A DNA stretch of 28,397 nucleotides from Geosiphon pyriformis (lineage: Eukaryota > Glomeromycota > Glomeromycetes > Archaeosporales > Geosiphonaceae), in NCBI GenBank assembly GCA_016748015.1, contig JAAOMT010000651.1:1-28397 (forward strand), written 5' to 3'. Numbering within the stretch: the stretch's first letter is position 1; each line of letters starts with the position of its first letter. A model generated the notes under the pieces. It was given only the letters and a program-made list of their open reading frames with translations, did not search any database and had not been told where the DNA came from. Positions 1 to 27,668 of this stretch are shown here, piece after piece. The position numbers and the translations under genes were made by a program.

Positions 1-503
1 AAAAAAAAAAATCAAAGTTTTAATATTTAACACATTTTTTTATAGCTTTTTAATATTATTTATTATTAATAAATTATAAATAACTTATTTAAAAAACATT
101 TTCTGATCTTTTTAAAAGCTATTTATTAACTAAAAATAAAAAAACAAGCCAAAACTTTGCTTTTTTAAAATTACATAAATTAATATATTAAGATATTAAA
201 AAATATTTCTAAAAGAGAAAATTTTGATTTTAAATTAAAGTATTAAATACATATTATCTTTTATATTACACAAGTTGGAAAACAAAATATATTTTATTTT
301 AAAAAAACAAAAAAACCAATCTGTTTAAAAAAAAATTATATAAAAAACCATGTAAATTTTATTTAGAAATAAGACATAAAAAAATAAACAAAACTTATAA
401 TATAATATATAAATAAATATTAATAATTTTTTATATATAAATTAAAAATTAATACATTTAAGTACTTAAAAATTTAGTAAAACATTTTTGTTTTTACTAT
501 ATT
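1..503. repeat. Outer part of left inverted-duplication arm
   Basis: This AT-rich non-coding stretch matches the reverse complement of about 27303-27668 almost end to end. Shared landmarks are the stretch around tcaaagttttaatatttaa at 12-30, the ttctgatctttttaaaagct run at 101-120, the aaccaatctgtttaaaaaa run near 314-332 and aagtacttaaaaatttagtaa at 460-480. The only large difference is an extra segment at 148-310. The arm is cut by the window edge, so its true outer end is not visible. No coding signal is seen. Confidence 0.85.
148..310. mobile_element. Small AT-rich insertion with 11-bp direct repeats
   Basis: The right arm has a single TAAAAAAACAA followed by the aaccaatctg landmark. The left arm has that 11-mer twice, at 137-147 and 300-310, with 152 bp between them. 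This is what a target-site duplication around a short insertion looks like. No terminal inverted repeat, tRNA-like box or poly(A) tail is evident, so the class is unknown. A deletion in the right arm by recombination between the two 11-mers would look the same. Confidence 0.5.
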
Positions 504-515
504 AAATATATTAAA
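504..515. repeat. Target-site duplication of LINE1, 5' copy
   Basis: The 12-mer aaatatattaaa here recurs at 7317-7328 immediately after the LINE1 poly(A). It occurs once, as its reverse complement, at 27291-27302 in the uninterrupted right arm. Confidence 0.85.
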
Positions 516-670
516 ACAAAAAACTTCTTTCTTTTCTATGTCCCAAATTCCTGAAATAATGCATTTTTGTTTTTTCATCTGTTTTCATCTTTTACTTTTG
601 CTTGGTTTTCACAATTTCTCAACTCATTAATCCTTTTATTGTTCCTTTGGCATCTAATGCTGTCAACATT

Positions 671-2497
671 ATGTCCATAAAAAAATTGGCCAGAAGTGCC
701 ACTACAAGTTCTGTAAGTGGTAGTTTAAGGCAAAAATCAAAGGTTTTGCTTGGTAAAGTTAAACACTTAGGCAATGAAGCTGATTTATCTTTCAAATTAC
801 CTATAAGTGAGCCTGGCCAGTATGAAAACATGGATATCTCTTCTGAAGAAAAGTTGGGACACAAGTTGGGCAAGGACTTAGACTACAGTGCTGGCAGTGA
901 AAATGATGAACTGTTGGACTCTTGTACCAACACCCCAAAGGCTAAATGCTTCAACTTTAATATAGTAAAAGTTCTTATTTTGGGGTCCTGTGACTTTGGC
1001 TCTGCTGTTGATAATGTCGACATAGATTTATCTCCCTCTGTTTCTTTGGAATCCTCTCTTTATTTGGTCACTTCTGTCAAAGAAAGACTTTGCTTTGAAC
1101 CAACCAAATCTTTCGCACTTAACATTGGTTTGTTAGCTGTTCCCAGAAATACTCTGCATAACAAACTCAAGAGTATCAAAAAGCTGTTCTATAAAGTTGA
1201 TGGTTTTGGGAGTGTGTTGACTCCATTAAAATTTTCAGGTATTGTTAGGGCATCTTTCATGTCTAAATTCAGTCTTGTTTTGGCTAAACAGTTGGCTGTG
1301 TCTAAAAATCTTGTTGTCAACACTAATCTAAAGAAGATTGGCATATAATTGGATCAGGAAATTGTTATCAAAAAAATTCCAGTCAATCTGCCCAAATTGG
1401 CAATTGAGTCAGCTTTGGTCAAGTATGAAAAAATTTTTTCAATCAAAATACAGCTGATTGGTCTCTGGCAAAAAGTGCTTGTGGAGTTTGAGAGTTCTTA
1501 GGTCGCTGACTTGGTTGTATCTAAATGGTCAATTTTGCTGGGTAAGGACTTGGCATGGGTTGCCAAAGCCAATGCTAACAAACAAACATGGGATTTAAGG
1601 AACAGCTATCGCACTTTTCTATACACTCTGCCAATAGGCACAATTGCCCACAATCTCTCAAATTTGGTCCAGTTATATGATGAGAAGACTTGCTGTATTT
1701 CTAGGAATTCAGTATCTTATGCATGAGCCCAATGTGCTGTCATATGTTTTGATTCTAAAGAAGCTAGAAAGGCTGCCATTTGCTTTACACTGGTGTTTAA
1801 GGGTATCAATCTCATCTGGGCTGGTTTGTCATCTTTTAAGTGTGCCACATATGGTAACTTTGGTCACGTTTTCTCTAGATTTAGCAGTAGTGAGAAAACC
1901 TTTGGGCTGGGTTTCAAAAAAAAATTTTTTTGTTCTGATTTGAATAAAAAGTGCCTTGTGCTCATCTATGCCAAAAAACAAGCTTTCGTGTCTTGTTCTG
2001 TCTCCTTTAGTGGTGTGACTTGGGCTTCTGTGGTAAGCAGCTCCCCTAAAAATTTGTCTTCTACACTATTCATTAAAACCAATATGGACATAGGATCGGT
2101 CAGCAGTTCAATGCCTGAGGTTGCAATTCTAGCTTTGTGTGTTAGTGTCTTCGAGCATTTGTTTGAGAATGTGTCTAACCAGGTAGCTGACATTTCACAT
2201 AAGCTAAACAGGTTGTTGGCAGTTTTATCAGCAAGTTTTGTTGTTTTGCCCACTCTTGAACATAATTCTGTGCTGGATATGGCTGTTGACGCTTCATTAT
2301 TTGTTCTTCCTATGCCTAGTGTGGTCACCACTGTCACCCAAAACATTTCTCCAAGTGGTTCCTGAGTTTTAACTGTGAAAGTAGGTGGCCTGGAGACTAG
2401 CCTGTTGGTTCTAGAGAATTCAATTAAAACAATAATGAATAAGTTAGACTCTTTTGGTTTTGGCAGTGGTGTGGTAATCTATTCCCTTCCTCAATGA
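671..2497 (+). pseudogene. LINE1 ORF1 (nucleic-acid-binding, gag-like), four internal stops
   Basis: One reading frame runs from ATG 671 to TGA 2495-2497 (about 608 codons), broken by TAA 1346, TAG 1499, TGA 1724 and TGA 2363, with no frameshift. The start MSIKKLARS aligns with MSKKKTSKS in LINE2, supporting ATG 671 over upstream non-ATG starts. The stretch after the first stop (EIVIKKIPVNLPKLAIESAL, codons near 1355-1415) looks like an RRM-type fold as in other LINE ORF1 proteins. A degraded CCHC knuckle lies near 1837-1885: KCATYGNFGHVFSRF keeps the first Cys and the His, but the second and last Cys have become Tyr and Phe. LINE2 has the intact CX2CX4HX4C at the same place. The expected role is RNA binding and particle assembly. 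The tail 1950-2480 is Ser/Val-rich with a probable coiled region. Confidence 0.85.
2494..2497 (+). promoter_or_regulatory. ATGA stop/start overlap between ORF1 and ORF2
   Basis: The ORF2 ATG (2494-2496) overlaps the ORF1 TGA (2495-2497). Such overlaps are used for termination-reinitiation in some LINEs with two ORFs. LINE2 has AATAAG at the equivalent place (12169-12166, minus strand), consistent with a decayed ATGA. Use of the site is inferred, not shown. Confidence 0.6.
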
Positions 2498-5400
2498 GTA
2501 GTTTAGCCTGGAAAATTGCTACTTGTAATATTAAAGATATGAATGTTTCTGCTAAGCAGGAAGACATTATTAGATGGCATATGATTTTGAATAATGACAT
2601 TTTAATAGTTACTGAAACTAAGCTTTGCTCCAGTGTTAAGTCTTGGATCATGAATAAGTTTTCTGGTATAAGAGTGTTTACTTCAAGTCTAGATGCTGGG
2701 TTTTTAAATGCAGGTGTTACTTTAATCATGAATGAAAATTTAGCCAAGCATGTTTCAAAAATCTCTGAGATTCCAGATAGGCTCTTAATGGTTCATTTAC
2801 TATTCAAAAACAAACAATCTGTCTTTGTATTGAGTTTGTATACAGAGGCCTCTTGGGATAGGCATATGATTCAGGCTGGTCTTATTAACTCTTTTATAGC
2901 CAAGGCTTGTAATGAAAATACTTTTGTTATATTAGGTGGTGATTTCAATGAGAATGAGAACAAACATAGCTCTAGCTTTAAGAAATATGTGGATCTTGGT
3001 TTAGTCAATACATTAATTAATAGTCCCTACATTAAGGCTTCTACTTGGAGTAATTCCAGAGGCGTTAAAAGAACCATTGATTTTGTTTTTGTTTCACAGA
3101 GTTTGAGTAATGCTTTGATAAATAGGCAAGTTGTGGATGTGGACAAGTTCTTTAATACTGATCACAGTTCTGTTCAAATTACAATTGGTCTTGGTGGAAT
3201 TTTGGATCCTGTTTTGAGAGCTATTTGTGTTCAAGCCAATAGAGACAAGTAGAAGTTTAATGTCAAAAATGCTGATGGGGTTAAATGGGAGCAGTATAAA
3301 AATGCATTTCATAAGAATTTTGCCATGTTCTCCAACAAGTTTGCAGATTTTCATTGTTTGTCTGATTTAGATGGCATGTGGTATGTTATTTGCAAAGCCA
3401 TCTGCTTCTCAGCAAATGAAGTTTTCTCAAAGACCTGGTCTAAAGATTTTAATAGTGGTTATACCAAGTGCTCTTCTTATTTTCATAAATTAGAACTTTT
3501 GGTTTCTAAATTGGTAAAGGCCTCACGTTCTGTGTTATCAGATGAGTTTGTTTCCCTTTTGGACATTTGGGTCTCTTTGGATTCTGTTAATGCTTTTGCT
3601 GTCAAATCTCTCTTCTTTTTGGGATCTCATTTTGATGCTATCAGGTCAGTTTTGGGAAAAATTAGGAAATATTATCATTCACTTAAGATGATGGAATCAA
3701 AACATGTTCAGAATTCTCAGATCAAGCTGGCAATTGACAAAAGAATAGAAAACTTTGGATTGAATAAAAGCCAGACTATTAAGAGTGTATTTGAGAGACC
3801 ATTTTGCAAAGTTACATTGAATCATTTGGTTGTGAATGAGGACCTTATTTTGGAATCTGGTTTGGTTAAATTTCACATCGATAGGATTATGGAGGGATAG
3901 ACCAGAAAGCGTATGGTAGTTGGTAATGTTTTGGATGACTGAAGTCACCAGTTTCAACCCTTGGAGTATGTTTTCGATAATGCTTTTTCAAATATTATGC
4001 ACTCAATTAAGGTGAATGAGTTTTTTGGTATGGTTCTGGATCTGCCTGATAATAAAGCTGTTGACCTTTCTAGTATTTCAAATGAGCTATGAAAACATTG
4101 TGACAGGTCTGTTCTGGATTTGTTTTTGGTTTTTTTGAACTCTTGTTTGGTTTGTGAGGCTGTTCCAGGCTCTTAAAAGAGGTCTGAGTGTCTATGATTC
4201 CTAAATCCTACAACTGGGAGGGAGTTCTTATGAATACCCAACCTATTGTACTGATTGAGAATATTTGTAAAATTCTCTCCAAGATTCTCTCTGACAGAAT
4301 CTTTTTGGTGTGTAGTAAGTATGATGTTCTTCATGGTGACAATTTTTCAGTCCTTAAAAGTATAACAACACAGTCTCTTATTTTTGCTATTGGTTCAGTG
4401 GTTAAGGATGCTTTGGAAAAGAATCACAAACTTTGGTTGGTTTTACAAGACATGAGAAAAGCATATGATTCAGTTGGCTGAAAACATTTGAGAAGAAGTT
4501 TGGTCAGAATTAAAATGTGCAGTGGATTCATAAGATTTTTTGGAAATATTCACAATGGTTGCATGAACAGAGTGATGACTGATTTTAGATTGACTGATGA
4601 TTATAGTGTTTGTGATGGCTTGGATCAAGAGGAAGTGTTTTCATCTCTCTTTTGATGAATTTTTTATGACACTTTGCTGTGCAAGGTTAAGAGACAAGAG
4701 GCAGTGTGTGGCTATAGGCTGAACTCATATTATGTTGCCAAGACTGGTTGTGTAGATTCACAGAATGGCTTTACATCTTTTTTTGCTGCAGATGCTTTTG
4801 TTGATGACACTATATGGGTTGGTTCTAGTCAGGCAGCCACACAATACATTTTCAATATTGCCAATGAATTTTTTAGGTTAAATAATATATCAATCAACAA
4901 TAACAAAACTGTAGCAATCCCAATTAATTATAGAGTGGCAGTGCCTTTTTTATCTATTAGTAATGCTCCTATTTCCATTGCCAAAAAGAGGGTGTCTCAC
5001 TATTATCTGGGTGTTTTTCTCTTTTCTAATGAATTGTCTAAGCCCAGCCTGGCCAAAGCACATTCTGATGTTTGGTTTTTTGCCAATTTAGTACTAAAAA
5101 AAGCGATTTCAGACAAACAGTTTTCTTACTTGGTTTCAGCAGTTCTTCATTCTATCATTGGTTACAGGATTCAGTTTAGCTTTGTTTCTGCTAGTGTGTG
5201 CCAGAAGTGGGATGTTTTGATTCGAAAAAGCCTGAAACTGAAGTTAGGTCTTCTTCTGAATTTTTTTAATGATGTCTTATACCATTTTTTGTTTTATGGC
5301 TTGAAAACTTTTAAGCAAATCCAGGCCAAAAACAAGGTTGCTGCTGTGGTGTGCTTCACTAACTCTGTTGGAATTTTGGGCCAGTTGTTCATGCATAGGT

Positions 5401-7181
5401 CACATGACTTGTAGGTTTTGAGTTGGCATTCAGTACATCTCTTGTGTTCTCCAGTTCGCATTAGTGTTAATCCTTTGAACAACTTCTTGGTGGGTGTGGT
5501 TTGAGTTTTTTTTGACTCTGGTTTATCCTTGGGCAACCTTGTTTATAATGCTTTTTGCTTCCAGAATGGAACTCTTTTATCTGAAATCCTTGGTGAATCA
5601 ATGTATTTCAGGTGTTTTCCCTCCCTTTGTTGTTATAGAATAGCTTTTGCTAAGCAGCTTTGATGCTGAAATAATGCTGTCTTTAATTGGAAAACTTTTA
5701 AGCAGTGGAAGAGGCTTGACCTGCGTGGCCCTGTTCCTGCCTGGTTTGCTGTTGCTGTTCGACATTTTTATGTTGCTGGTTTTTTTAATGTTGGCTCATC
5801 TTTTCTGGTTGCTACCTCTGTAAAAGACATTCTTGATTCTTATGAATTTAGATTAGTATGTAATCAGTTGTCTGGTCTTAGTGCCTCCAATTTTTTTGTG
5901 TACACAGATAATTCTTTTTGTGGCTTGGGAAGCATGAATATAAAAGCTGGTGCTACTGCATTCTTTGAAAACATTAACTTGGGTCTTGGGGTGGAGGTGT
6001 TTGGCATGATTTTTTTTACATTAGCAGAGCTTTAAGCCATTGCATTGGCTCTTAAATGTGTGCTTAGTTCAAGTTCAGTCCATTTATTTTCTAACAGCCA
6101 AGCTGCATTGGATGCATGTAAATCTGAATTATTATTGTTGGCTCCAGATTTTCGAAACAAATGTTGGGTTGAGCATCAGCACATTGCTGAAATTATACAT
6201 AACAGGAATTTGGACATTGGCTGACATAAGGTCAAAGATTACTTAAGTGTTCTGGGTAATAATAGAACTGACTTGCTTGTTAGTATTTCTTCCCATTCGG
6301 GCTGGCTCTTTTATCCCTGGCTCAAGAAATGTTTTATCTTGGCTAATGACAATACTGTTTCTAGAAACTCTAAGCACTTTGTTTATGATATTTTTTGGTC
6401 TATTCATCGTGCAAGCTGGAAGGTTGGCTCTGGTGCCAAAATTGTGAATGGTTATATTTTTTCAGATATTGATTGGTTTAAGTCATCCCTTGTTTGGCAT
6501 CTTGACTTTTACATGACTGCTGGCTTTACAAATTACTGCTCAGCTGGCTCCCATTCTTATTTTATGAAAGCTTTACATTATAGACTACCTGTTGCTATTC
6601 AAAAACGCCTTTATGATAGATGTTATTCCAGTGTGGTGTGCCTATATTGCAGTGATGTCGAGTTGTCAGACTATGTTTTCTCTTATGCATTTGATGTGAC
6701 TGCTTGGTTCCAGTTGTTTGTTGATTTTGCCTCTACTTGAAAAACTGTTTCTGGTCTGTCTCATGCCTCTTCTCATGTATCACAAATGCTATCCAATTGT
6801 TTGGCTGATTTGAAGCTTGTTGTTTTGCTGTGCAAAGGTTTTGTGCTCATGGATTGGTGCCAGAAGACCATTTCTTGCTTTGACGACTCTAAGGTTGCAT
6901 CTGATAAGATAATTGAGTTTGTTTGTAGTTTGTGTCTGTCTTTTAGGAATAATATTTGGCTGGTCCATTCCAAGTATTGTGTCTATATGGAGAAATATGG
7001 TCTAATCCCTTGCAATGGTTCAATTCCTGTCTTGGTGTCTGGTGGCATGTCAGTGTTTTCAGCCTGAGTGGTTAGACTGCTTGGTATTGACAATGTGTTT
7101 GGTGTTAGTTTTGGGCTGCACAGCTTCTGCTGGTTTTTCTCAGGTATAGGTAATTCAGTTTTTGTGCATGTGAGTATATAG
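2494..7181 (+). pseudogene. LINE1 ORF2: endonuclease, reverse transcriptase, RNase H (decayed)
   Basis: About 1,560 codons, first in frame with 2494, then shifted by a one-base deletion near 4174-4178 and continuous to TAG 7179. Endonuclease 2515-3250: ATCNIKDMN, ETKLCSS, GGDFNENEN, TIDFVFVSQ and NTDHSSV keep the expected catalytic Asn, Glu, Asp and His positions. Reverse transcriptase about 4100-5300: LQDMRKAYDSVG (motif A), GLDQEEVFS (motif B, degraded) and AFVDDTIW (motif C, Asp pair intact, about 4794-4817). RNase H about 5900-6250: VYTDNSFCG and LAEL keep Asp and Glu, but FSDSQ has become FSNSQ and the C-terminal HSG motif is lost. C-terminal Cys motif CLYCSDVELSDYVFSY near 6640-6690. 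Internal stops are at 3250, 3898, 3940, 4090, 4185, 4479, 4653, 4656, 5412, 5502, 5661, 5667, 6033, 6222, 6738 and 7065; many sit at Trp, Gln or Arg positions. The intact protein would nick DNA and prime reverse transcription at the target. Confidence 0.92.
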
Positions 7182-7316
7182 TGTAGTTCTGATTGGCTTA
7201 AGTGGCTAGTTACGTGTAGAAAAAGCATGATTTACACCTAGTTTAGATTATTATTTTGATGTATTATCACTAGACAGTATTTGGACTTCACTCATTAAAA
7301 TATAAAAAAAAAAAAA
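7182..7316 (+). other. LINE1 3' UTR and poly(A) tail
   Basis: A 3' UTR of about 120 bp ends in cactcattaaaat and then about 15 A (7304-7318). The right boundary is where the left-arm sequence resumes with atatattaaataataa. A similar ending (attcataaaacattaat plus an A-rich tail) is found in LINE2 and LINE3. Confidence 0.8.
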
Positions 7317-7328
7317 AAATATATTAAA
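7317..7328. repeat. Target-site duplication of LINE1, 3' copy
   Basis: Second copy of aaatatattaaa. Its first As merge with the poly(A), so the exact tail/target boundary is ambiguous by a few bases. Confidence 0.85.
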
Positions 7329-9066
7329 TAATAATTTTTAATTTAATCAATAGCTACGAATCTGATTTTAATAAAAGATTTTTATTTTTATTATTAATGT
7401 TTTATGAATGCAGCACAATCATTATCTAGTATATAAAGCCAAAACTATGAACTCCAACTAGACACAATTTATGTATTTATTACATGTGACCAGTTATTCA
7501 AATTAATCAAAGTAATACTAAGCCCTTATACAAACAGAAGTTAAACCACCAAAACCAGAAAAAAACAAACAAGATATACAAAAACCAAAACTAAACCCAA
7601 AAAAATTATCAATATCTATTAACTTAACTATACTATCTAATAAAACCAGCACTATGCCAACAGACATCACAGGCATCATTTTTGAATTGCTGATTAAATT
7701 ATTTTTTTCTATATTCACTTTAAATCTAGACTTGGTATCCCACAATTCAGAATAGTATTGTATATTCAAATCATATACAAAATCAACCAAAATTCAGACA
7801 GCCTTTTTATAATCCTCAAAAATTTTTACTGTCTTCTTAAACCACTCTACAAGTACAAAATCTTTGTAGAAAAGTGCATACAAGCCAACATCAAATAAAC
7901 ACAAAAGAAAAGATTCCACAATGACAGAAAAGATAAAAAAACAAAAACCAGCCAGGGACTTTTAAATTAAAATACATTCAAACAAGAATGCCTTATAAAA
8001 AACAGACTTCTTGCTATATGTGAACACATAATTGGAAAACTCAATCTCTCCACAATGTAAACATAAAACACCAGAATAACATTTATTGTAAAACCTTTTT
8101 CTAATAGCAACAAACAGTTTTTTATAGACAGTTTTTATAAAATAAGTACATAAACCAGCTGAAGTCTTACTTATAGACCTTGACAGCATATGTAAATCTG
8201 GATACTAAACTGCTATAGTATGGATCTAATCAACATTACAAACCGAAAAACCACCTAAAACCCTAGAATCAGAACCAATTTCCCAGCATGCATAATTTAT
8301 TGACCTAAAAATATCCCAAACAAAATAACAAACATTACCAAAAACTGGCAGACCATTAGCCACAATAAAACATTTACACACATTAATTGGCAGCAGCAAA
8401 GAAGAGTAAACAGCTACTCCCATTAAAGCATCTGTGCAAACATTACCCAAAACTCCTGAATGGCTTCTGACTTTCGACTAAACCACAGAAATATTTTTAT
8501 TAATAATCAAATTTGCAATATGTTTTCTCTTCATCTAACAACTACTATGAAAATTAGAATCAGATAACTTCAACTTTGAGACACATGTATCTAATGTGGC
8601 TTAACTGTCTAAACACACTATCACCAAACAAGAAAAAGACATGTATTCCAAAGTTAAAGCAACAGCTTGTAATTTGGTCATTATAGAAAACAAAAGCTCA
8701 TTAATTCTAACTTTAATATCCAAATCAATTTTAAGAAAAAATGTAGTAGCACTTCCAGTCACATTAACAAAACCAAGCCCTTTTAAAGAACCAACTATAT
8801 AAACAGTAAAAGTATCTAATCAGATCTTAAGCAGATTACTCTTAATATCAGAAAACTGATTAGATAATAAAACATTATTAAGCACAAAATCATGTAAAAA
8901 CTTTGATACCAAAACAAACCAAGAGGACACAGGTCTTTTAAAGTCCAATTTTTTCCAACATTAAAATGTCTTCTAATATAAAACTCTATTGCATTTGTTC
9001 AAAAGTCTGTTACAGAAGGCTACACCAAATTTTTTAAAAGAATTAACTCAATTATAGTACAAAGAT
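7329..9066. repeat. Inner part of left inverted-duplication arm
   Basis: The reverse complement of 25525-27290 aligns along this entire stretch. It includes non-LINE flank on the distal side (atcaatagctacgaatctg at 7347-7365) and then 1.7 kb of LINE 3' sequence. Long identical runs are visible, for example the acaaacagaagttaaacc run near 7529-7546. Homology ends at tagtacaaagat (9055-9066). Past that point LINE2 continues, while the right arm switches to LTR-B. Because the flank is shared as well as the element, this is one insertion that was later duplicated, not two insertions. Confidence 0.85.
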
Positions 9067-12000
9067 GGCCACAAGACACTCAAAACAAGAAATCTGCAAA
9101 GACAAAAAAAAGCACAAGGCAAATTGTTTATTATAAAAATACTATTTTTCAAAAAAACATGCACAATTCTGGCCAAAAAATTGTTTAAAAGACTAATTTG
9201 TAACTGCATTAAATATTGTAAAAGATTCAAAGAAGCCCAGCCCAAAACCTGCAAATCCAAAAATCTGTGTTCAAAAAGCCAACCAAAAATCTCAAAAACA
9301 TTAGCAAACATAACAATTGAAGTTAATTTTCTTTTAGCTTAAACCTGCTTAAATGTTTTCAGACCATACAATGAAAGATAATATAACACTTCATTTGAAA
9401 AATCATGGGGCAGCCCAGTCTTTGACTTAAAATTTTTCCTAACCAAAGCATCTCAATGCCAAAAAACAGTGGAAGAAATAAAACTAAACTGAGTACAGTA
9501 GCCAATAATGGGCTGCAAAACTGCCAAAACCAAATACAAGAACTGCTTATTTGAAATAGTCTTCTTTAACACCATATTAGAAAAAAACTTGATATCAAAT
9601 TGAGCCTTAGCCAAACTGGGCTTGGATAAATTATCAGTAAACAAAAAAATATCCAAGTATCTGTAAAATACACCACATTTGGCAATCAAAATAAGTGACC
9701 CACTAATCCTGAGAACAGCATTCTTAACTCTTCTATTGATGGAAATGACAACTATTTTGTTGTTATTGATTAAAATATTATTAATCAAGAAGAATTCACT
9801 GACAATGTTTAATATAAATTGTGTAGCAGTTTGGTTATTTCCAACCCAGATAGTATTATCCACAAAAGCCCCAGCCATGAAAAAAAAAGTCATCCTACTC
9901 ATATTATTAATCTTTTCTGTCTTGGCCACAAACTTGGTATCAATTTGGTAACCACACATATTTTCTTGTCTTTTAACTTTAGACAAAAGAGAGTCATAAA
10001 AAATTTGCCAAAGAAGGAAAAAAAACATCTCACCTTAATTAAGATTATTGAGCACCCAATATCCATTCAAAAAACCAAAATCTGTCATGACTTTATTCAA
10101 CTTATTCTTATAAATTCCACCAAAAAACTTAATGAATCTCTTGCAAATTTTGATATGCCACAAACTAACTTTCAAATAATGCCAACCAACTGAATCATAT
10201 GTCTTGTACATATCTTGCAACACCAACTAAATCTCTTTATCTTTTTTTAAAGTATCTTCAACCACTAAACTGACTGCAAAAATAAGAAACTGTATCAAAG
10301 TATTTTTTATAATAAAGAAGTTATTTTCACAAAGAACACCAAATTTATTGCAGATAAAAAAGATCCAATTTGAGAGAATTTTAGAAAAAATCTTATAAGC
10401 AGTCTTAACCAGAACAATAGGACAAGTATTCATTAAAATGTTATCTTATTTATAAGGTTTGGGTATTATTAAAACTCATGCTCTTTTCCATAAAATCAGA
10501 ACAGCATCCAACTTTAAGCACAAATTCAAAAGATTCAAAAAACTTCTGAAAACATCATCACCACAATTTTTCCACAATACATTAGGAATTCCACTAAGAC
10601 CAGCAGTTTTCCTATTAAACAAGTGTTTGACAACTTAAACCAACTTACTAAAACTGATAATGTTCATAATATTAGAGAAAACATTATTATTCACATGCTG
10701 CAAAGAGACATACTGGTAGGCTCAAAGATCAGACAAAGATCTAGAAACTAAATGCCTTCTGATTTACCTTCTCATTATAGCATTAATCTTAGATTTAATA
10801 TTATTAGAATTCAAAACCAGCTTGTTATCAACAATTAAATAGTTGAGAACCACTTTACAAAATGGTTTATCCAATATACTCTTAATTATACAGCCTTTGT
10901 TTAAGCAAAAATTTTCTATTTTTTTATTAATAACACACCTAATAGCAGCAGATTTAGCAGCTTTAAATTCATGAATCTTAGAACATTAGTAACTTTTTTT
11001 GATCTTAAACAAACAACTAAAAATTTTCATGTTGCTGGTACTATTATTTAACATGTTCTAAATCTCAAGAGTCTTAACATTATCAGCAATTAACCAAGTA
11101 CCAAGAAGTAAATCAGTTTTAAAAAAATCACCAGATTGAAGAGACTTAACTACTTTGGCAACCAGCAGTTCCAGCTTGAAAAACTTAGAAGATTGTCTGT
11201 TGATAAAACATTTGATATTATGAAACCAATGTTTAAAAAAACATTATTAGCTGAATCTACTATCACCTTTTTCAACAAATTTCACATAGTATTAAGATTT
11301 CTACTAGCATTTGCAAATAAAAACTCACCAATTACAGAAAAAAACTTGACAGAAACACATTCTTTAAAATAAGCCCATTTGGAAGCATTCACATTAGCAA
11401 TTTTAAACTTCTAATAATTTCTATTAGCTTGTTTGCACAAACCATTTAAATAAAAATCCAAAAGTCTACTTAGACCAACTGATACTATAACAGCCTTGTG
11501 ATCAGTATCAAAAAAATCAGAAGCAGAAACAACTCCATAACTAATAATTGCTAATGATAGATATTTACTGAAAAAAATGTAATCAATAATCTTCTTGACT
11601 CTTCTCAAATTGCTCTATGTAGAGGTCTTGACCAAATAATAACCTCTAAGTGAATTGACCAAACTCAAATCCAAACAAAAATGAAAGCTTACACTCTTTT
11701 TAGAACCATTTTCATTAAAATTCTCACTCAAAACCACAAAAGTGCTGGTGTTAACTGTTCTTGCAATAAAAAAATTAATCTCAACTGTCTGATCAAACTT
11801 AGTCCCAACAAAAACACCAGCATACAAACCCAAAATTGTGACTGAAAGCTTGCCCTTGAAAAAAAGCCAAACTGAAATAACATGGCCAAGCATCTCTTCA
11901 ATCTTGAAAACATGTTAAACCAAAAAATTGTTTATAATAATTATTACTCTAACACCAAGAAAACTTTTATCCAAACCAGATGTAAACACTTACACACTAT

Positions 12001-15390: not shown

Positions 15391-15439
15391 TAGAGTTTTA
15401 ATCAAATTGAATTAAATTAAATCAATTTTTTAAAATAAA

Positions 15440-15714: not shown

Positions 15715-16375
15715 AATAACCCAAATAGTCCAAATATTAATATATTTAGTAAGTATAGTTTTCAAAGTAAAATGGGACTATTTTGATAAGTTTGAAGAAA
15801 TAAAAAAAACAGCTAAATCTACAATCTCAAAATGTGCATATAAATCATTTTTTTGTGAAACTACAGATACTACCAAACTTTTATAGCATTATTTAGAGGT
15901 TTTCTACTAAACAGTATATATTACAATGAAAGAATATTATAAGAAAAAGCAAAATGGTTAAAAACATTATAAGTTAATTCAAAAAATATTTTAATAGATA
16001 AAATTGCTATTTTTTTTTTATGATTTTTATTTACTCTTTTTTTATACAAGTTTATCATTAATTTTATTAGTTATAATCTAATTTTTTTTAACAGTTTTTT
16101 ACTATTACTCTTGATAATATTGCAAATAATAGTACTTTTATAAGAGAATTAGCAAAAAAATTAGAAAAAAAAAACATTTAATAAAACTTAAAAAACTTTT
16201 GATTTTAATATTTTGATTATATTCTAAATTTGGCAGTACAAATGATTTTAGATAAAATAAAAAATGATATTTCTAAGGTATTTATTAAAAATCCAAACTG
16301 AATATATTTACATAAAATTTTATTAATATAAACTTTGTATAAATTAAAGATTAAAGAACTTAATTCTATAATTTG
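15715..16375 (+). pseudogene. hAT transposase, N-terminal part (BED finger and first catalytic region)
   Basis: 15767-15910 reads WDYFDKFEEIKKTAKSTISK, then CAY and, after about 12 residues, TTKLL-stop-HYLE. This follows the BED zinc-finger pattern (aromatic W and F, CxxC, then Leu/His); the two Cys of CxxC and one His have changed. After a frameshift, 16101-16170 reads ITLDNIANNSTFIRELAKKL, the hAT T-x-D-N-x-x-N-N signature with the Asp retained. 16215-16250 reads YILNLAVQMILDKIKND, the conserved block that follows. The frame reaches the TA at 16376-16377, where the Tc1/mariner element is inserted. The protein would be a cut-and-paste transposase; this copy is dead. Confidence 0.78.
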
Positions 16376-16377
16376 TA

Positions 16378-16403
16378 CAGGGGGGTATAAAAAGTATTAG
16401 ACA
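16378..16403 (+). repeat. Tc1/mariner left terminal inverted repeat
   Basis: Begins CAGGGGGGTATAAAAAG. It differs from the right repeat at its 4th and 22nd positions only. Confidence 0.93.
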
Positions 16404-16595
16404 CTTAATATAATATATAAAAAAGGCTATATATAGTAATACCATTACCAATTTAAGCCATAATTTTTTTTATAATTACTTATAGTTATAATCTACAAAT
16501 CAACATAAATTGCGTCCTTGTAAAACACAACAGTGGATCATACATGTATTTATAAAATATCAACATTCTTGTTGTGAAAAAATTTACTGCATCAA

Positions 16596-17633
16596 ATGTG
16601 TCTTAGAAAAAAACTTTCTGAATACCAAAAAGGAGGGATTATTTCAGCAAAAAAGTTAAAACATACAAATAGTAAAATTTCAATGACTATTAGATGTTCA
16701 TGTTCTTCTGTAATATGTGTATGGAAGTTATACAAACTAAAAAAACTTCCTAAAAAATGAATGGGCTGACCACAAATTCTTGACAAACGTGCACATGAAC
16801 AACTCAAATATTCAATAATGGAGAATAAAGAAACCTACTGTCAAACTCTTTCTCAAATATGATTGAATTTTATTAAAGATACCAACAAATCTATTTCTAT
16901 ACAAACTATTCAAAATAGATTAGCTTAAGAAGGACTTTGCTCATGCATTCCTCATCTCAAGCCATTAATTTCCAAATTAAATAAAGAAAAACATTTACAA
17001 TGGGCTTGTACTTATGAAAATTGAACAGTAGAAGATTTTAAACAAGTTGTTTGGTCAGATGAATCTACATATACACAATTTAGGACTACAGGATTTGGAC
17101 ATGTATGGTGTAAACCTTCCGAAGAGTTTCATAAGGATTGTATTATAGTCACAGTTAGAAAAAGCTTTGGTCGCATGTTTTGGAGATGTTTTTCATGGGT
17201 TGGTTTGGGTTCTTTAGTTCCTTTGGTTGGTCATATTACTGGAGTTATACATTACAAAACTTTGGCTAATTATGCAATTCCTACGGTAAAACTTCATGCA
17301 AAAAAAACTAAAAAAAAGTTTTTTTTTTAGGAAGACAATGCACCAATTCACACATCAAAAGTTGCGCATTCTTTTCTTACCTCTTCAAATGTTGAATTAC
17401 TTCCTTGGCCAGCACAAAGTCCTGATATTACTCCAATAGAAAATCTTTGGTCATATATTGAAGTTAAAATTTGTCAATGTAATTCACAACTCTTAAATAT
17501 TGTACAATTGAAACAGTAGATTAAGGAAAAATGGGATGCGATACCTGTAAATTACTATCATAATTTGATCAAGTCTATGCCACATCGAGTTCAAGCTATT
17601 CTTGAAGCAAATGGGGGTCAAACAAAATGCTAA
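16596..17633 (+). pseudogene. Tc1/mariner DD34E transposase, seven internal stops
   Basis: 345 codons in one uninterrupted frame from ATG 16596 to TAA 17631, the usual length for the family. N-terminal helix-turn-helix region: KLSEYQKGGIISAKKLKHTN and SSVICVWKLYK, then a G-[R]-P-Q hinge where the Arg codon is now TGA. Catalytic core: VVWSDEST (first Asp), EDNAPIHTS (second Asp, near 17336) and SPDITPIENLW (Glu), with 34 residues between the second Asp and the Glu. Internal stops are TGA 16758, 16767, 16860 and 17022, TAA 16926, and TAG 17328 and 17517. No frameshift is present, so a few substitutions killed it. The TAG at 17328 sits just before EDN, where Gln is usual. The intact enzyme would excise and reinsert the element at TA. 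Confidence 0.93.
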
Positions 17634-17705
17634 CATGTATTTTAATATAATAATAAAAAATTAACGATTCATAAGTTAGTTCTTTTATATAACATATTAT
17701 AAAAA

Positions 17706-17731
17706 TGTCCAATACTTTTTATACCCCTCTG
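17706..17731 (-). repeat. Tc1/mariner right terminal inverted repeat
   Basis: On the minus strand begins CAGAGGGGTATAAAAAG, matching the left repeat at 24 of 26 positions. Confidence 0.93.
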
Positions 17732-17733
17732 TA

Positions 17734-18705
17734 TGTTGTTTTAATGTTTTAAGTTTTTTGAACATGTCTGTAATATATGTCAAATTAAATACTGTAAACT
17801 CATTTTGAATTGTTTTATCTGATAAAATTTTACTTATGACATAGTCAAAAATAAATTATCTCTTAAATTGACAAGTTATTTATTTTTGATTTTGTATATT
17901 TTAAATAAAAAAATTCTAACTGTAAATTTATAAGCATTAAACATTCTTACTAGCACTTATATTGACTTCTATTAATATGTTATTTTACATAATTAGTGGG
18001 CTGTTTTTAATAAAATTGCTAGATTTTTTGAACTATTTAAAAATATTACAATTAAAATGTTAACCAGTTCAAATAATACTGCCTTCTCAATTATTATTTT
18101 TTTAATATCATTTTTAATCATGTCAAAAACACAGTTAATAATAATAAATCTGGTAAAGCATTATAATCTCAATTGTATTTATTTAGTTATTTATTTAATA
18201 TATTTAATATTAGATCTATTATTTATTATAACAGCTAAAACAATAAGAGAAAAGTTGATTGAATATTACTTTAAAACAAATACAATTATAATGCTCTGTA
18301 CTACATTGAATTTAAGAAAAAAATTTAATTATTTTACAAAAAAAAATTTTGGATAATAATATTAATAAAATAAAAAAATTATAAGTTATTAATTTATTTA
18401 AATAGTTTTATTTTTTAATTTTTACATGATAAATAAGTCTTAAGAATATATATTTTTTTTGAAATAAAGTATACACTAAATATTATACCAACATTAAATA
18501 ACAGTTTTTTGTTAAATAGCAATTTTAATAATACTATAGCATCAATTATACAATTTATATTAGAGACAAACTTTAACAATAATAATAAAAAAACTTAACA
18601 AAATTAATTATTATATCTCTGAAAAAATGACCAATAGAAAAATAAATGTAATAATATGGTAAAAGGTATATGATGCAAATTATTTATAATCATCAAAAAT
18701 ATAGA
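17734..18705 (+). pseudogene. hAT transposase, middle part
   Basis: Continues in the frame that was cut at 16376. 17754-17815 reads FFEHVCNICQIKYCK and then NFTYDIVKNKLSLKL, where the PTRWNSTYxM block of hAT transposases belongs; the Arg-Trp pair has become two stops. 17990-18100 reads WAVFNKIARFFELFKNIT and MLTSSNNTAFSI, matching the region before the insertion domain. 18215-18356 reads AKTIREKLIEYYFKTN and CTTLNLRKKFNYFTKKN, a decayed A-L-D/N-P-R-x-K-x-x-Y-F block. 18590-18705 reads YYISEKMTNRKINVIIW-stop-KVYDANYL, the lead-in to the C-terminal dimerisation domain. The protein stops abruptly near 18705 and resumes at 22790. Confidence 0.72.
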
Positions 18706-18854
18706 TCAGCTTAAAATTTTAAATGATAATTTTTATGTGTTTTTATTTATATAATTAAATTTTATTGGTTAATATACATGTGTTTTTAATATATTATTTA
18801 TAATAAAAAATAAAATTTTATTAAATTTTATATAATATAAAACCAAATACAGTA

Positions 18855-20990
18855 TTACAAATTTTGAATATTATTTAATTTGTTTAATTCTTCAAAAATA
18901 TTATCTGGAATTTTTCTATAAAATTTATACTTTTTTATAGCATATTCTACTAATTTTTCACTAAGACTTTTTTTATTCAAATTCATATAACACCAATATT
19001 TTTTTGAAAATTGTTTAATAATTATTAAAAATACCAATTTAAGACTTTTAGATACTGTTCTTTGTAATCTTTTCCATAAATAATTGTATTTATTATGTGC
19101 ATATTTTTTAACAGCTCTCCAATATTTTTCAATAAAATTTAATTCACAATAAAATTTTGAAAAAAAATGCACTTATGTCCCATACTTTTGATTAATTCTT
19201 CAATTGTATTTTTTTGAGTAAAAAAATCAGATTCTAAAAATATTATTTAATATGCACAACAAAAAACTCTTGAAGAATCTTTGATTTTTTCTTTGTATTT
19301 TTGGCATTTTAATATTAATTCTTTTAATGGCCATTTTTTTCATTCTATTAATACTTGTTTAATTTTTTTAGGCAATTTTCAAAGTTTTTTATCTGAATAT
19401 ATTTCCAGAAAGATCATTAATTATAATTGATTATCTAATTCAAAAGAAGTATTTTGCATTAATAATTGTTTTTTATTTAAACTTAAATTCATTCTGTTTA
19501 CAATTAAAATATTTTTACTAAATACTGCATAATTAGAGCTAATATTGAAAGCAAATATGGCTGTACAATTTGGATATAATTTTTTAAAAATTGGAATTGC
19601 TTTATATTTAATTTGTTTAAAAAGATAATTTGCTATTCAATAACTATCTTGATTTATACTAGATTGCAAATAGCATTATGTCTTTTCTGATAGTTTTTTA
19701 TATCATTTTGTTGTAAATATAAATGTCTATCAATTTTAGTTAAAAATTCATTAATTATGATTGATTTTTTTTTTTCTTTTTTTCTTAGTGGCAAATTTCT
19801 ATGCTCAGCTTATATGTTATGCTTGCTATCATTTAAATAAAAAATACATTTATTATGAATTACAAGAACTCTTTTTTTTCTTCATTAAGTAAGTTAAAAT
19901 GTATTTAATCTATAAATTCATCTTCATACTTTAACATATACTTTTTATGCTCATATATTTTTTCAAAAAATTTTTTTTGAGATTGCAAAATATTATTTCT
20001 TTCATGTTTATTATAATATAAGTCTTGATAATGTTTTTAAAATAAATAACCAAAAATTTTGAGCTATTTTATTACAGTCATAAAACTAATAGTTTTTTCC
20101 TTCATTATTTCAATATTAGAAAATAATTCATGTTTAATGAATTTTTAAATGTGGTTAAAATAACATTGAAGTTTTGGTTTCTAATCTAAATATGACATCT
20201 TTCTGCAATATCTTTATTATTAATTATTCTAATTATTTTTTGGTGTTTTTTATGTTTTGATGTTGAAAGCTTATCATTAAACAACTAATACTTTACAAAA
20301 TATCGAATTTTTTGTGCTTTTTATACACTATCATTAATAAAAACTTTTTGGGCAATTTTCAAACTGGCATTATTTTTTTATGTTCATTATTATCATTTAA
20401 CAAGATAAAATATTTAAAAATAGCTCTTTTTTAATTATATTCAAAGACAGTTAACTAAGCATGTTGTTTTTCTAAATGTTTTTTTAACTCTTGCTTTTTT
20501 TTTATTTAACTAGCATATAAATCAATCTTACTTTCTAAATTGCTTAAAGATTTATTAAATTCAGACCATTGTAAGTTTGTAATTTGAGCATTATTAATAT
20601 TAAAGAAAGTAGTAATTTTTTTTAGTTCCAACTGCTGCTTTAGTGAATAAATCATTTGGTCTATATTTATTATAATAAGTTAACTTTGATATCTTTTTTA
20701 TTATGTAAGGATCTTATTTTTTTTTTTATATAATTGTTATTTTTCTATATTAAACTGAGTTTTTTTAATTTTATATTTATTCTAATTACAGCTTTTATAT
20801 CTTCTGTATTATTTTATCTACTGTTATTATTATTATCCTACTCTCTATTACTAATATTCAGTTTGTTAAATTTATTTACTTCAATATTATGATCATTTAT
20901 TGAAATGATATAATGTGTTTTTTTATATAATTTTTTTGTATTTCTAATTTAATCTTTAGCTTTTCTTTTTTATTTAAAATAAAGTGGCAT
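18855..20990 (-). pseudogene. DDE-superfamily transposase, fungal KFHCELNFIE-type, heavily decayed
   Basis: Read 20990 to 18855 with many stops and frame changes; the ATG at 20990 (MPLYFK) is a likely start. Recognisable blocks in order: KKISKLTYYNKYRPN (about 20660-20700), NLQWSEFNKSLSNLESKI (about 20530-20590), KHKKHQKIIRIINNKDIA (about 20215-20265), YYNKHERNNILQSQKKFFE (about 19960-20020), VLVIHNKCIFYLND (about 19835-19875; Asp of the usual HDE lost), SIIINEFLTKIDRHL (about 19720-19765), KAIPIFKKLYPNCTAIFAFN (about 19550-19610; second Asp region, FDNSSNH degraded), VNRMNLSLNKKQ (about 19465-19500), KKIKQVLIE then WPLKELILKC (about 19300-19370), GHKCIFF and, after a one-base loss, KFYCELNFIEKYWRAVKKYA (about 19080-19185; the Glu is the last catalytic residue). 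The last 105 residues form an open frame from 19172. I know this family from fungal genomes but cannot name it securely. Confidence 0.75.
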
Positions 20991-22789
20991 TTTTTATGTA
21001 ATGTAATGTTAATTTGGTGTATAATTGGTGCTTGGACAAAATTAAAGAATTTGAACCATGTAATATTGTACAACAAAATTGTATTACAATAAAAATGGCA
21101 TTTTTAATTCAAGTATATATTTATTCTTTGAATCTTTTTGGTTTTAATTTAAACTTTAATTTCTGTTTTGTAGTTCTGGATAAGAAACAATTAAAAAAAG
21201 CTCCTTTAGTATTCATCAAAAAAAAATTTTATTGGGATTGGAGAGATTATCTGAGTCGAAAATTCAGGTAACATTAATAAAAATAGTTACCACAAAAATC
21301 TTTTTGACTTATAACAAATTATTTATGAATTTACTGTTCAAAAAAAAATATCCAAAATATTATAATGTAATTAAAAAGCCAAGATTCTTAAACATGATTA
21401 AGATTGGTACTATGCACTTTTTCTCATTAGTTGTTTAATACTTGACATATGTTTTTTATATTACATCAACAAAAAATTCAAAAAAAATATTATCCATTTA
21501 TGAATTTGATCAGAACTTGTAATTGATTTCAAAAATATTATGTATTTTAATGATAATTTATGCATTTTCAAAAATGCTAAATTCTTATAAATAAAAGTTT
21601 ATTAGGCTTTTACAAAAAAATCTGGATTTTATCTATTTAAAGTAATATGTTTTATATATTTTTTGCATCAAAATGAACTTGTTAAAAAATGTATAATACT
21701 AACAAAAAAGAACTATTTAAGATTATAGGCTTTAAGACAATTTCAGTTTTTTTAATTATGGTAAAGCCAAGGATCTTTAATTCCAATCTGATTCTTCTAA
21801 ATTAATATCAATTAATATAAGTTTTTTGTATATTGTGATAAGTTATTATATATTATATTCTAATAAGTTGTTAAAATATTCAACAATTAAAATTCTTTTT
21901 ACAGTCTAGAAAACCAATTCTAAAATTAGATTATAATTTAGTCGAATACACAATAGATATTTTAGTTATTATATTTTTCTTTGGTATAATTTATTATTCA
22001 AATATTAAATTTAACCAGAAATTTTTATTATAGAGAATTTTGTATATTTTTTAGATCTAAGCAATTTTTTAAACCATAATATTATAGTTATTGAAAAATT
22101 ATTTGTGAATTCAAGATAAGTATTCATATTATAATAACACAAGGTTATAAATAGAATGCAAATAACATTCCCAAATTCTATGATAATTACTTATAGTACT
22201 TTTATGATTCCTTTGATGTTTGGTGTAAACAATATTGATATCTAAATTTCTGTTCTAATAATAATAACTGAATATAGTAATGATATAAATAAAATATTCA
22301 TGATTAATAGTATCAACAGAAGATATGCAGGCTGAAAAATATTATATCTTTATAAAAAAGTGATCATTTAAAAATTAGATTAATATTAATTAAAAGTCTT
22401 TTTAAAAATGATAATACTTTGATGATTTATTACATAATAATGTAATTTTAATAATTGCTGATTGGCTAAAATCTGATTGATTGACATCCAAAAATTAAAG
22501 ATTAATAATAAAAGTGGCTAATTTTAAACTTTAATAACTTTATAAATTATAATATAATTCAAAAAATTAAACTATAAATATAAAAGAAAAGAACTTAATT
22601 TATCATATTTACGATTTAGTTTTTTAATATTATTAAAATTAGAAGACTAGATACAATTTAAAATTATATAAATTGTTTGATGACTATAAATAATTTGCAC
22701 TATATTACAAAAAATATTTATCTAAATTAACATTTTATTAATAATTTAATATTAAAGTACATCAAATACAATTTTTTTGTTTTATATAT
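20991..22789. other. Unexplained AT-rich stretch inside the hAT
   Basis: No protein family was recognised on either strand. Two short overlapping open frames at 21014-21438 lack an ATG-led, family-like protein and are not called. GC is slightly higher at 21000-21280 (for example tgggattggagagattatctg) than around it. Some of this may be transposon 5' sequence, hAT sequence after the insertion, or a further unrecognised element. Confidence 0.5.
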
Positions 22790-22915
22790 ATGGCTTGTAA
22801 TTATTTGGTAATCTAAAAATCATTTATTGCTTTTGAATTCACTTTTTCTGCAGATGAAAATATAATTACAGATATAAGATCTTGTTTAATATCTAAAATT
22901 ATAAAAACAATATAA
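22790..22915 (+). pseudogene. hAT transposase, C-terminal dimerisation fragment
   Basis: One frame reads MACNYLVI-stop-KSFIAFEFTFSADENIITDIRSCL. It follows the hAT pattern M-A-R-D-Y-L-x-I-x-x-x-S-V-x-S-E-x-x-F-S-x-x-G-x-x-I-T-x-x-R-x-x-L with several changed residues. It fits directly after the KVYDANYL block that ends near 18705, which fixes the hAT as one gene interrupted by the 18.7-22.8 kb insertion. Confidence 0.68.
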
Positions 22916-23009
22916 TGTTTTTGATTATAAATACAGAGACTATTAAAAAAAAAATTAAATAATAATAATGTATAATATAATATTTTTAATAGTTAAACCT
23001 AAATATGTT

Positions 23010-23191
23010 TATAAACTTCAAATTAAACTTGAACCAAACTTGTTACATGTATTTAGATTTAATTCAAGTTTAGTAATTTTAAGTCTGGTTTGAGTTTGAG
23101 TTTAAAATTTTGCAAATCTTTTATTTGAGTTTGGTTTAGTTTGATAGTTCTATCAAACTTAAACCAAACTAGACTAAACATCAAAATCCTA
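23010..23191. repeat. hAT right subterminal repeats with hairpin
   Basis: Repeated motifs such as aacttgaaccaaacttg, attcaagtttag and aagtctggtttgagtttgag mirror the left subterminal zone. A long hairpin lies at 23128-23170: agtttggtttagtttgata pairs with tatcaaacttaaaccaaact around gttc, with one bulged base. The element ends at 23191. Confidence 0.6.
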
Positions 23192-23660
23192 GCAGAAACA
23201 AGATAATAAGTAACAAAATAATTAACAACAACAATAAAATAATATATAATAAGATAACTAATAGCAAAAATAAGATAATTAGCAATAACAACAAAATAAT
23301 ATATAACAAAATAATTAACAATAATAACAAAATAATATGTAACAAGATAATTAGCAACAATAACAAAATAATAAACAACAAAATAATTAATAGCAACAAC
23401 AAAATAATATGTAACAAAATAATCAGCAATAGTAAAATAATAAATAATAAGATAACTAATAATAATAATAAGATAATTAATAACAAAATAATCAGCAGCA
23501 ACAACAAGATAATATATAACAAGATAACTAGCAGTAGTAAAATAATAAACAATAAAATAAACAACAATAACAACAAAATAATTAGTAATAATAAAATAAT
23601 AAATAATAAAATGATTAGCAACAACAAAATATTCAGTAATTGTAACAAAATAACTGAAAA
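23192..23660. repeat. 36-bp minisatellite, right block
   Basis: About 13 copies of the same unit as 14826-15390 on the same strand. If the hAT is removed, the left block ends with gataatcagtagtagt and the right one goes on with acaagataataagtaac, keeping the 36-bp register. On the minus strand two frames stay open, giving a 12-residue periodic Tyr/Phe/Val/Ile protein (220 codons, 23721-23059). I regard this as a by-product of the unit. Confidence 0.85.
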
Positions 23661-23789
23661 TAGTAATAATAACTACTAAATTAACAGTGTTATCAATGGT
23701 TTTTGTTACTATTGAGAACATTTTTTAGCTTAGCTGATAATATATATTACTATAATTATAACTATAAATTATAGTATATCATGAATATA

Positions 23790-25426: not shown

Positions 25427-25524
25427 TCTTTTTTCTCTTCTTTTATTCTAATTGGCTAATTTATAATCATGTGTTTTTTTTTTGATTATGTATTATTTTT
25501 TCTCTTTTTTAAGTATAGTATTAT

Positions 25525-27106
25525 CTTTGTACTATGATTGAATTAGTTTCTTAAAAAAATTTGGTGTGGTTTTTTATGACAGACTTTTGAACAAACATGG
25601 TAAAGTTTTAGATTAAAAGACATTCCAACATTAGAAAAAATTGGATCCCAAAAGATCTGTGTCCACTTGGTTTGTTTTGGTGTTAAAGTTTTTACACAAT
25701 TTTGTGTTCATATCAATGTCTTTCAATAGAAGTTCTGTGTTAAATGTTAATAATGTTTTATTATCAAATCAGTTTTTTAATATTAAAAGTAATTTGCTTA
25801 AGATCTGATTAGATACTTTTACTGTTTATATAGATAGTTTTTTGAAAAAACTTGGTTTTGTTAATGTAACTGGGAGTGCTATTGCATTCTTTCCTAAGAT
25901 TGATTTGGGCATTAGAGTTAGAGTTAATGGGCTTTTGTCTTTTATGATAGCCAAATTATAGGCTGTTGCTTTGGCTTTGAAATATGTGTTTTTTCTTATT
26001 TAGTAGTAGTGTATTTGAACAATTAGGCCATATTAGATGCATGTGTCTTAGAGTTAAAGTTACCTGGTCCCAATTTTTGTAATAGTTGTTAGATGAAGAA
26101 AAGACATATTGCAAATTTGATTGTTAATAAAAACATTGCTATGGTTTAGTCAAAAGTCAAAAACCATTTAAGAGCTTTGGGTAATGTTTATGCAAATGCT
26201 TTGGTAGAAGTAGTTGCTTACTTTTCTTTGCTGCTGCCAACTAATGTGTGTAAACACTTTATTGTGACTAATAGTCTACTAGTTTCTGGTAATGTTTGTC
26301 ATTTTGTTTGGAATATTTTTAAGTCAATAAATTATGTATGTTAAGAAATTGGTTCTGGTTTTAGAGTTTTAGGTGGTTTTTCAGTTTGTGATGTTGATTA
26401 AGTCCATATTATAGCAGTTTGGCATTCAGATTTACACATGTTATTAGGGTTTACAAGCAGAATTTTGGCTAGTTTATGCACTTATTTTATGAAGGCTGTT
26501 TATGGAAGGCTGCTATTATTATTAAAAAGAGACTTTGCAACAAATGTTATCGGTGTTTTATGTTTACATTGTAAAAAGATTGAGTTTTCTAATTATGTGT
26601 TTACATATAACAAAGAGTTTGTCTCTTATAAGGCAATTTTGTTTGAGTGTATTTTAATTTAGAAGTCCCTGACTGGTTCTTGTCTTCTTATTTCTTCTGT
26701 GATTGTGGAATCTTTTCTTTTGTGTTTATTTAATGTTGGCTTATATGCACTTTTCTACAAAACTTTTGTGCTTGTAGGGTGGTTTAAGAAGGCAGTAAAA
26801 ATTTTTGAGAATCATAGAGAGGCTGTCCAGATCTTAGTTGATTTTGCACATGGTTTGGATATATAACATCATTCTAAGTTGTGGAATATCAGATCTAGGT
26901 TTAAAGTAGATATAGAAAAAAATAATTTAATTGGTAATTCAAAAATAATGTCTGTGATGTCTGTTGATACAGTGCTGGTTCTATTAGATAGTGTGATTAA
27001 GTTAATAAGTATTGATGATTCTTTTGAGGTTAGTTTTGGTTTCTGTACACCTTGTTTGTTTTTTTCTGGTTTTGGTGGTTTAACTTCTGTTTGTATAGAG
27101 GCTTAG
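25525..27106 (+). pseudogene. LINE3 ORF2 C-terminal part (RNase H and Cys motif)
   Basis: Starts within the ORF2 region between the reverse transcriptase and RNase H (ISFLKKFGVVFYDRLLNK). RNase H remnant near 25815-26180: YIDSFLKKLG keeps the first Asp, the AEL motif reads AKL followed by a stop, and HSG appears as a degraded NHLRALGN. C-terminal Cys motif CLHCKKIEFSNYVFTY near 26557-26610. The end CLFFSGFGGLTSVCIEA with TAG at 27104 matches LINE2. Numerous stops are shared with or close to those of LINE2; others differ, such as TAA at 26344 where LINE2 has Trp. Confidence 0.85.
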
Positions 27107-27240
27107 TATTGCTTTAATTAGTCTGAATAACTGGTCATATGTAGTAAATACAGAATTGTGTCTAGTTAGAATTCATAGTTTTGACTCTGTATACTAAATA
27201 GTAATTGGGCTGCACTCATAAAACATTAATAAAAAAAAAA
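25525..27240 (+). mobile_element. LINE3: 3' quarter of the LINE2 duplicate
   Basis: Plus-strand copy of the last 1.7 kb of the LINE, ending in ten As (27231-27240). Its 3' flank (tcttttgttaaaatcagatt) is the same as that of LINE2, so it is the duplicated partner of LINE2 and not a separate insertion. The 5' end is cut at the LTR-B junction rather than being an ordinary 5' truncation of reverse transcription. Confidence 0.88.
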
Positions 27241-27668
27241 TCTTTTGTTAAAATCAGATTCGTAGCTATTGATTAAATTAATAATTATTATTTAATATAT
27301 TTAATATAGTAAAAACAAAACTGTTTTACTAAATTTTTAAGTACTTAAATATATTTATTTTTAATTTATAAATAAAAAATTATTAGTATCTATTTATATA
27401 AAAAATTAAATTAATATTATATATTATATTATAAATTTTGTTCATTTTTTTATGTTTTATTTCTAAATAAAATTTACATGATTTTTTATATAATTTTTTT
27501 TTAAACAGATTGGTTTTTTTGTTTTTTTATTTCTAGTTAATAAATAGCTTTTAAAAAGATCAGAAAATATTTTTTAAGTAAGTTATTTATAATTTATTAA
27601 TAATAAATAGTATTAAAAGACTATAAAAAAATGTGTTAAATATTAAAACTTTGATTTTTTTAATTGAT

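Follow-up and report, generated by a model that had tools for sequence, protein, structure and literature searches.

A LINE-bearing locus with a partial inverted copy, and transition-biased divergence between its arms, in a repeat-rich contig

Results

The two outer parts of the DNA analyzed here very probably go back to a single locus: a non-LTR retrotransposon (LINE B) entered a dispersed element (T) once, and the locus was then duplicated with a partial copy in inverse orientation; insertion of a second retrotransposon (LINE A), duplication of the whole block, entry of a Tc1-like element and C-to-T change would have followed. The window, i.e., the whole stretch analyzed, comprises 28,397 nucleotides, positions 1-28397 of the 69,698-base contig C164 (G000:C164:1-28397); C287, C405, and similar labels denote other contigs of the same genome. 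The following features were mapped in the window (strand given where one was assigned).

1-515: left arm, outer part; left end of the terminal-inverted-repeat element T, cut by the contig start (inverted match to 27291-27661; dispersed repeat).
504-515: first copy of the 12-bp target site duplication (TSD) of LINE A, AAATATATTAAA; the second copy is at 7317-7328, and the right arm and C405 have only one.
516-7316, plus strand: LINE A, a non-LTR retrotransposon with endonuclease PF14529, RVT_1, a poly-A end and a TSD.
7317-7382: rest of T-left in the left arm, ending with the LINE B TSD (7364-7382).
7383-14156, minus strand: LINE B, an apparently full-length non-LTR retrotransposon (protein similarity to LINE A; A-rich tail in family copies); the right-arm copy stops at the equivalent of 9066.
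14157-15390: T resumes with the second copy of the LINE B TSD (14157-14175), the middle of T and, from ~14800, an AAT/AAC-rich minisatellite; other T copies and C405 pass from ~27237 to ~14158 without a LINE.
15390-23165: AT-rich DNA within T, nested in turn; C405 and C260 pass from 18687 to ~22701.
16377-17733, plus strand: Tc1-like DNA transposon (HTH_Tnp_Tc3_2 and DDE_3; breakpoints 16377/17730), absent here in C287 and C405.
25523-27236, plus strand: right arm, 3' 1.7 kb of LINE B, opposite in orientation to its left-arm counterpart (self-BLAST); inner breakpoint at 25523.
27237-27864: right arm, T-left including the outer terminal inverted repeat (~27599-27864), in the opposite orientation to the left arm.
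27865-28397: outer flank copied along with T; the same flank adjoins T-left in C405, C314, C396, and C287.

Self-BLAST of the window paired 5-515 plus 7317-9066 with the reverse complement of 25523-27661 (E-values of 4.5e-36 to 0), through minus-orientation matches of 7317-8881 to 27302-25747 (84.3% over 1567), 8869-9066 to 25723-25523 (80.1%), 300-515 to 27529-27291 (87.0% with gaps, 8 mismatches) and 5-147 to 27661-27519 (95.8%). The inverted homology described in the initial annotation is therefore present, with limits that move from the 1-503 plus 7317-9066 versus 25525-27668 given there. The match ends at position 5 because the window starts where the contig does, which places its true outer limit out of view, and the right end of the window meets a run of N. 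Self-comparison, a check proposed with that annotation, shows homology reaching beyond the LINE into the flank; since the 3' end of LINE B in the right arm falls at ~27236 and not at 27302, the non-LINE flank common to both arms, put earlier at about 370 bp, measures ~425 bp (27237-27661). Left-arm positions 148-299 are unpaired, as ~152 bp is missing from the C164 right arm, most of which is kept in the right arm of C287. The arms are indeed separated, but the 16-kb spacer that was described between them includes most of LINE B itself. Inverted homology that stretches past one mobile element, with the insertion at the same site in both copies, is what identifies an inverted segmental duplication, and both are found here.

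Another check proposed, a search for the outer flank elsewhere, gave 64 match rows for 27303-27668 in its own genome. The regions around these matches (17 places outside contig C164, plus locus L002) show that the sequence belongs to T, a dispersed element of ~2.6 kb whose left part forms the flank shared by the arms; T copies with both ends in view have terminal inverted repeats of roughly 180-270 bp at both of them, and no clear TSD could be read by eye at those ends. The left arm is thus a T into which LINE A (516-7316, plus strand) and LINE B (7383-14156, minus strand) have both inserted. Ten short T copies were compared, and in none could a LINE fit at the insertion site: ~27237-27243 is joined directly to ~14158-14173 in nine, while L018 shows a small deletion at this point. 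The LINE B site is also empty in C405, C314, C316, and the far end of C164, and C405 is colinear with the window, without the LINEs, from the outer flank through T to 16028. That the flank is a 3' untranslated region of the LINE is ruled out, as it is found without the LINE and runs on into the other half of T.

LINE B is bounded by TSD copies of ~19 bp (7364-7382 and 14157-14175) that differ at two bases, and its insertion point in T is the same base in both arms. Its protein matches that of LINE A at 59% over 180 amino acids, and no Pfam domain was found in six broken LINE B frames. Family copies elsewhere have their 3' end at about the same point, followed by an A-rich tail. Among 19 other LINE B loci fetched, L028 and L033 were set aside for flank reading because an interruption just inside the 3' end makes their own flank unreadable; T adjoins the 3' end in 0 of the remaining 17. 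The best T-left scores at the 19 loci were 21-42 bits; three positive controls reached 475-708 and four shuffled flanks 23-49. At L032, the match extended 54 bases beyond the usual LINE end, into T sequence of the query, but the flank is not T-left (42 bits). A target-specific LINE was rejected on the evidence of the same 17 copies. A tree built from transversions only separated one group, made up of the four arms (C164L, C164R, C287L, and C287R) and L028, from 18 further LINE B copies with a support of 98; in L028, which seemed too distant by transversions, 26 of its 30 lie in one stretch beside an alignment gap. In a tree of T-left, the LINE-bearing copies (the four arms, C287 unit 2, and C396) split from 15 others with a support of 100, with the insertion site itself not covered in one of the 15, C228. 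C396 carries L028 together with T-left and the tip of LINE B (L002), and LINE B there runs past the equivalent of 9066, as in the left arm (L069).

The common insertion base, the lack of T at all 17 readable flanks and the tree support of 98 together indicate one insertion that was later copied; with the LINE-free loci, they bear out the initial annotation, which held that inverse copying involved a segment already containing the LINE. A rival reading is that a target-specific LINE inserted twice independently, hitting the same base in each of two T copies already lying inverted; this would account for a difference of ~16% between the LINE parts of the arms against ~5% between their flanks. 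In LINE B, moreover, the transversion distance between the arms (0.77%) lies only slightly under those to the nearest outside copies (0.97-1.5%), which counts against a single insertion, and the T-left tree does not put the right-arm sequence nearer to the left arm than to C287 unit 2 or C396 (support of 51-58). We nevertheless consider independent insertions very unlikely, given the 17 family copies outside T, the empty site in the 10 short T copies compared, both tree supports and the fact that the half of T expected beyond 25523 after a truncated insertion was not found there. As for LINE A, the left arm appears broken because this element inserted later: it is found in the left arm only, here and in C287, and is missing at the same site in the right arm, C396, C287 unit 2, C405, C314, and C316. 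We take LINE A to resemble LINE proteins of Rhizophagus and Gigaspora.

The right-arm LINE B stops at 25523, corresponding to 9066 in the left arm, where the left-arm element continues. The other half of T, not found beside this breakpoint, is present in C287 unit 2, where the spacer is followed by the right end of T. The entire layout occurs again on this second scaffold, C287:3132-31080 being colinear with 7-28344 of the window at 92-97%, junctions included; a one-off false join is therefore unlikely. An assembly artefact, one of the options left by the initial annotation, would have two repeat copies joined at 25522/25523, and the setting invites it: the region is rich in repeats, the window opens where its contig does and closes on a run of N, and C287 has N at nearly the same points. 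The C287 junction lies, however, in sequence that is ~4.6% different, so the same false join would have had to be made twice, and we give this explanation very little credence. The C164 and C287 blocks both terminate in N or at contig ends. Compared with C287, C164 alone has the Tc1-like element (16377-17733) and the ~152-bp loss in the right arm; C287 and C405 have ~830-860 bp extra near 16025. Farther along in C287 lies another inverted block, its T again occupied by LINE B; the inverted T found farther along in C164 is empty.

The evidence does not support another option raised at the outset, in which the arms would mark the two ends of a very large inverted-repeat element. The window would then be the body of a mobile element ending in the inverted T-left stretches, in keeping with a right end that has an outward-pointing T terminal inverted repeat, a left end that enters the same repeat before the contig stops, and a block present twice, in C164 and C287. 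The copied DNA nonetheless passes the end of T (to 28344 in C287), so that the unit exceeds the T ends and the copy is of a segment rather than a transposition of T. The sole transposase domains seen, in the part of the block scanned frame by frame, are those of the nested Tc1-like element. A large mobile element is, in our judgment, extremely improbable.

The arms are ~84% identical in the LINE and ~95% identical in the flank apart from gaps. Upon closer analysis, 261 of the 272 differences between the arms in the LINE are transitions, as are 14 of 22 in the flank. By transversions the flank is not the younger part (8/423, versus 11/1662 in the LINE), and five of its eight are clustered in the 76 bp next to the A/T-rich tail. 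The greater apparent age of the LINE part comes mainly from the predominance of transitions among its differences and from the scarcity of C and G in the flank (G+C of ~10% in T-left, ~29% in the LINE). Transitions per G/C base, calculated by hand, come to ~0.33 in the flank and ~0.54 in the LINE; this higher load means that composition explains much of the gap, but not all of it. Gene conversion of the flank is possible but not needed once transitions are separated. The bias recurs between C164 and C287, where transitions make up 710/725 differences in LINE A, 336/348 in the left LINE B and 176/199 in the spacer (17735-23150).

Direction was counted in repeat copies throughout. In 13 Tc1-like copies (that of the window plus 12 chosen from dozens of matches), 759 of 884 changes from the column majority are C to T or G to A. 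This amounts to 0.130 per C/G site, whereas transversions occur at 0.0031 per site; CpG accounts for 280 of these 759. By context, the rates are 0.308 at CpG, 0.131 at CpC, 0.095 at CpA, and 0.071 at CpT. The trend is weaker in 14 LINE B copies (1,376 of 2,372 changes, with 834 in the reverse direction), for which nine rows (the four arms, L028, and the distant L036-L039) were excluded and majority states are less certain. Cytosine methyltransferase exons gave 10 matches in the genome, and the nearest PDB entries for two exons of one such gene are DNMT1 chains. It is possible, but we regard it as rather unlikely, that the arms and other repeats of the genome are targeted by an active hypermutation process that turns C into T in repeated DNA, in any context but preferentially at CpG and TpC, in an arbuscular mycorrhizal lineage reported to lack repeat-induced point mutation (RIP).

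Regarding the identity of the genome, an 18S copy closely matches mycorrhizal primer sites, one of them exactly, while AM1 fits poorly, with 4 mismatches; when read by eye, this copy has many apparent C-to-T changes. A search of the genome for a fatty-acid synthase I domain found none; failure to match does not prove absence, and the search included no fungal positive control.

Discussion

Taken together, the nested insertions suggest an order of events. LINE B would have inserted once into T, and duplication of the locus would have yielded a partial copy, made up of the 3' part of LINE B, T-left and at least 0.5 kb of DNA outside T, set in inverse orientation at a distance of ~16 kb, in the place that the right end of T should occupy. 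What served as template for this arm was probably one of the LINE-bearing T copies, possibly the left arm itself, and the cause may have been an error of repair or replication, such as a template switch, or non-allelic exchange between T copies. LINE A would later have split the left copy, after which the whole block of ~28 kb would have been duplicated again (C164 and C287), the Tc1-like element would have inserted in C164 alone, and C-to-T change would have removed many cytosines from the copies.

The duplication is an ordinary, known kind of repeat-driven rearrangement, though unusually well ordered by its nested insertions; the mutation pattern is the more interesting of the two and a lead worth following. 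Plain percent identity is misleading here because one mutation type dominates in the LINE, so that the same two copies give ~95% in one part and ~84% in the other. If the genome belongs to Glomeromycotina, directional C-to-T change outside CpG in repeats would be noteworthy, as RIP is reported to be undetected in Gigaspora. If hypermutation is at work, the inverted duplication would be a natural pair recording its rate, in which transversions have barely accumulated and a large share of cytosines has been lost; if it is a defense process, it would bear on how transposons are restrained in fungi said to be RIP-less.

A CpA preference is a trait of Neurospora RIP. The repeats of this genome share with ascomycete RIP a directional change, C to T and G to A, on both strands, but they have no CpA preference; CpG and TpC are favored and other contexts are also affected. 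RIP in the strict sense was set aside on account of this difference in sequence context. Published work describes RIP signatures as undetected in Gigaspora margarita or Mucoromycotina (PMC8647823), G. margarita as lacking RIP (PMC7082362) and ascomycetes as unique in RIP-type signatures (PMC12543289).

With respect to the duplication itself, the genome looks related to that of Rhizophagus irregularis. One literature search on Rhizophagus listed five papers, none of them, judging by title, about an inverted duplication of this sort. One report describes the rDNA neighborhoods of R. irregularis as inverted and dispersed (PMC6123716), resembling the window in having inverted repeats tens of kilobases apart. 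Unlike them, the window and 8 further loci have no rRNA family match at gathering scores; the N runs start at different offsets, and rDNA was rejected as the identity of the outer flank. Inverted segmental duplications in transposon-rich chromatin, a general eukaryotic kind, offer the closer likeness: as in the window, a block with nested insertions is inverted, the copied DNA runs past element ends and a breakpoint truncates an element, and no feature tested sets the window apart from them.

Repeats and transition bias

Apart from LINE A, LINE B and the dispersed element that holds LINE B, the following repeats were recorded in the window:

14819-15390 and 23165-23680, an AAT/AAC-rich minisatellite that occurs twice in direct orientation, flanking the AT-rich inner spacer
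16377-17733, a Tc1-like transposon, whose match rows number in the dozens, most of them at 89-95% identity
23795-24943, an element bounded by no named family but having inverted repeats of about 118 bp (80%); C348 and C396 carry partial relatives

Transitions accounted for most of the differences among repeat copies (516-14156, 16377-17733, and 25523-27236). When the Tc1-like copies were polarised, the changes ran from C to T on both strands, with CpG and TpC favoured; in the LINEs, CpG is almost exhausted, at an observed/expected ratio of 0.03-0.15. The genome search returned three 5.8S matches, the sole strong one being at the rRNA locus L067 (C320:1042651-1045804), where the expected place of the 28S is occupied by N; by our reading of its sequence, the 18S and 5.8S of this locus appear to carry many C-to-T changes.

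Element within the LINE B tip and the outer end of the window

On C396, the LINE B tip (L002) and the remainder of LINE B are separated by about 15.8 kb (~4313-20163). The 3' tip of LINE B at L002/L028 on this contig, and at C287:60954, holds an element with ends GTTAYCTRAGTA, positioned after AACATT, and L033 (C326) has a start resembling that of this element at the same LINE B point.

The outermost 126 bp of the window (28272-28397) gave 16 match rows, six of which lie about 5.3 kb or less from a contig start (C186, C405, C396, C402, C91, and C359), and several matches reach N close by. The runs of N in the two blocks, C164:28398-37481 adjoining the window (C164:32001-35000 checked by sampling) and C287:1-3131 and 31081-33898 around the second copy, start at near-homologous points.
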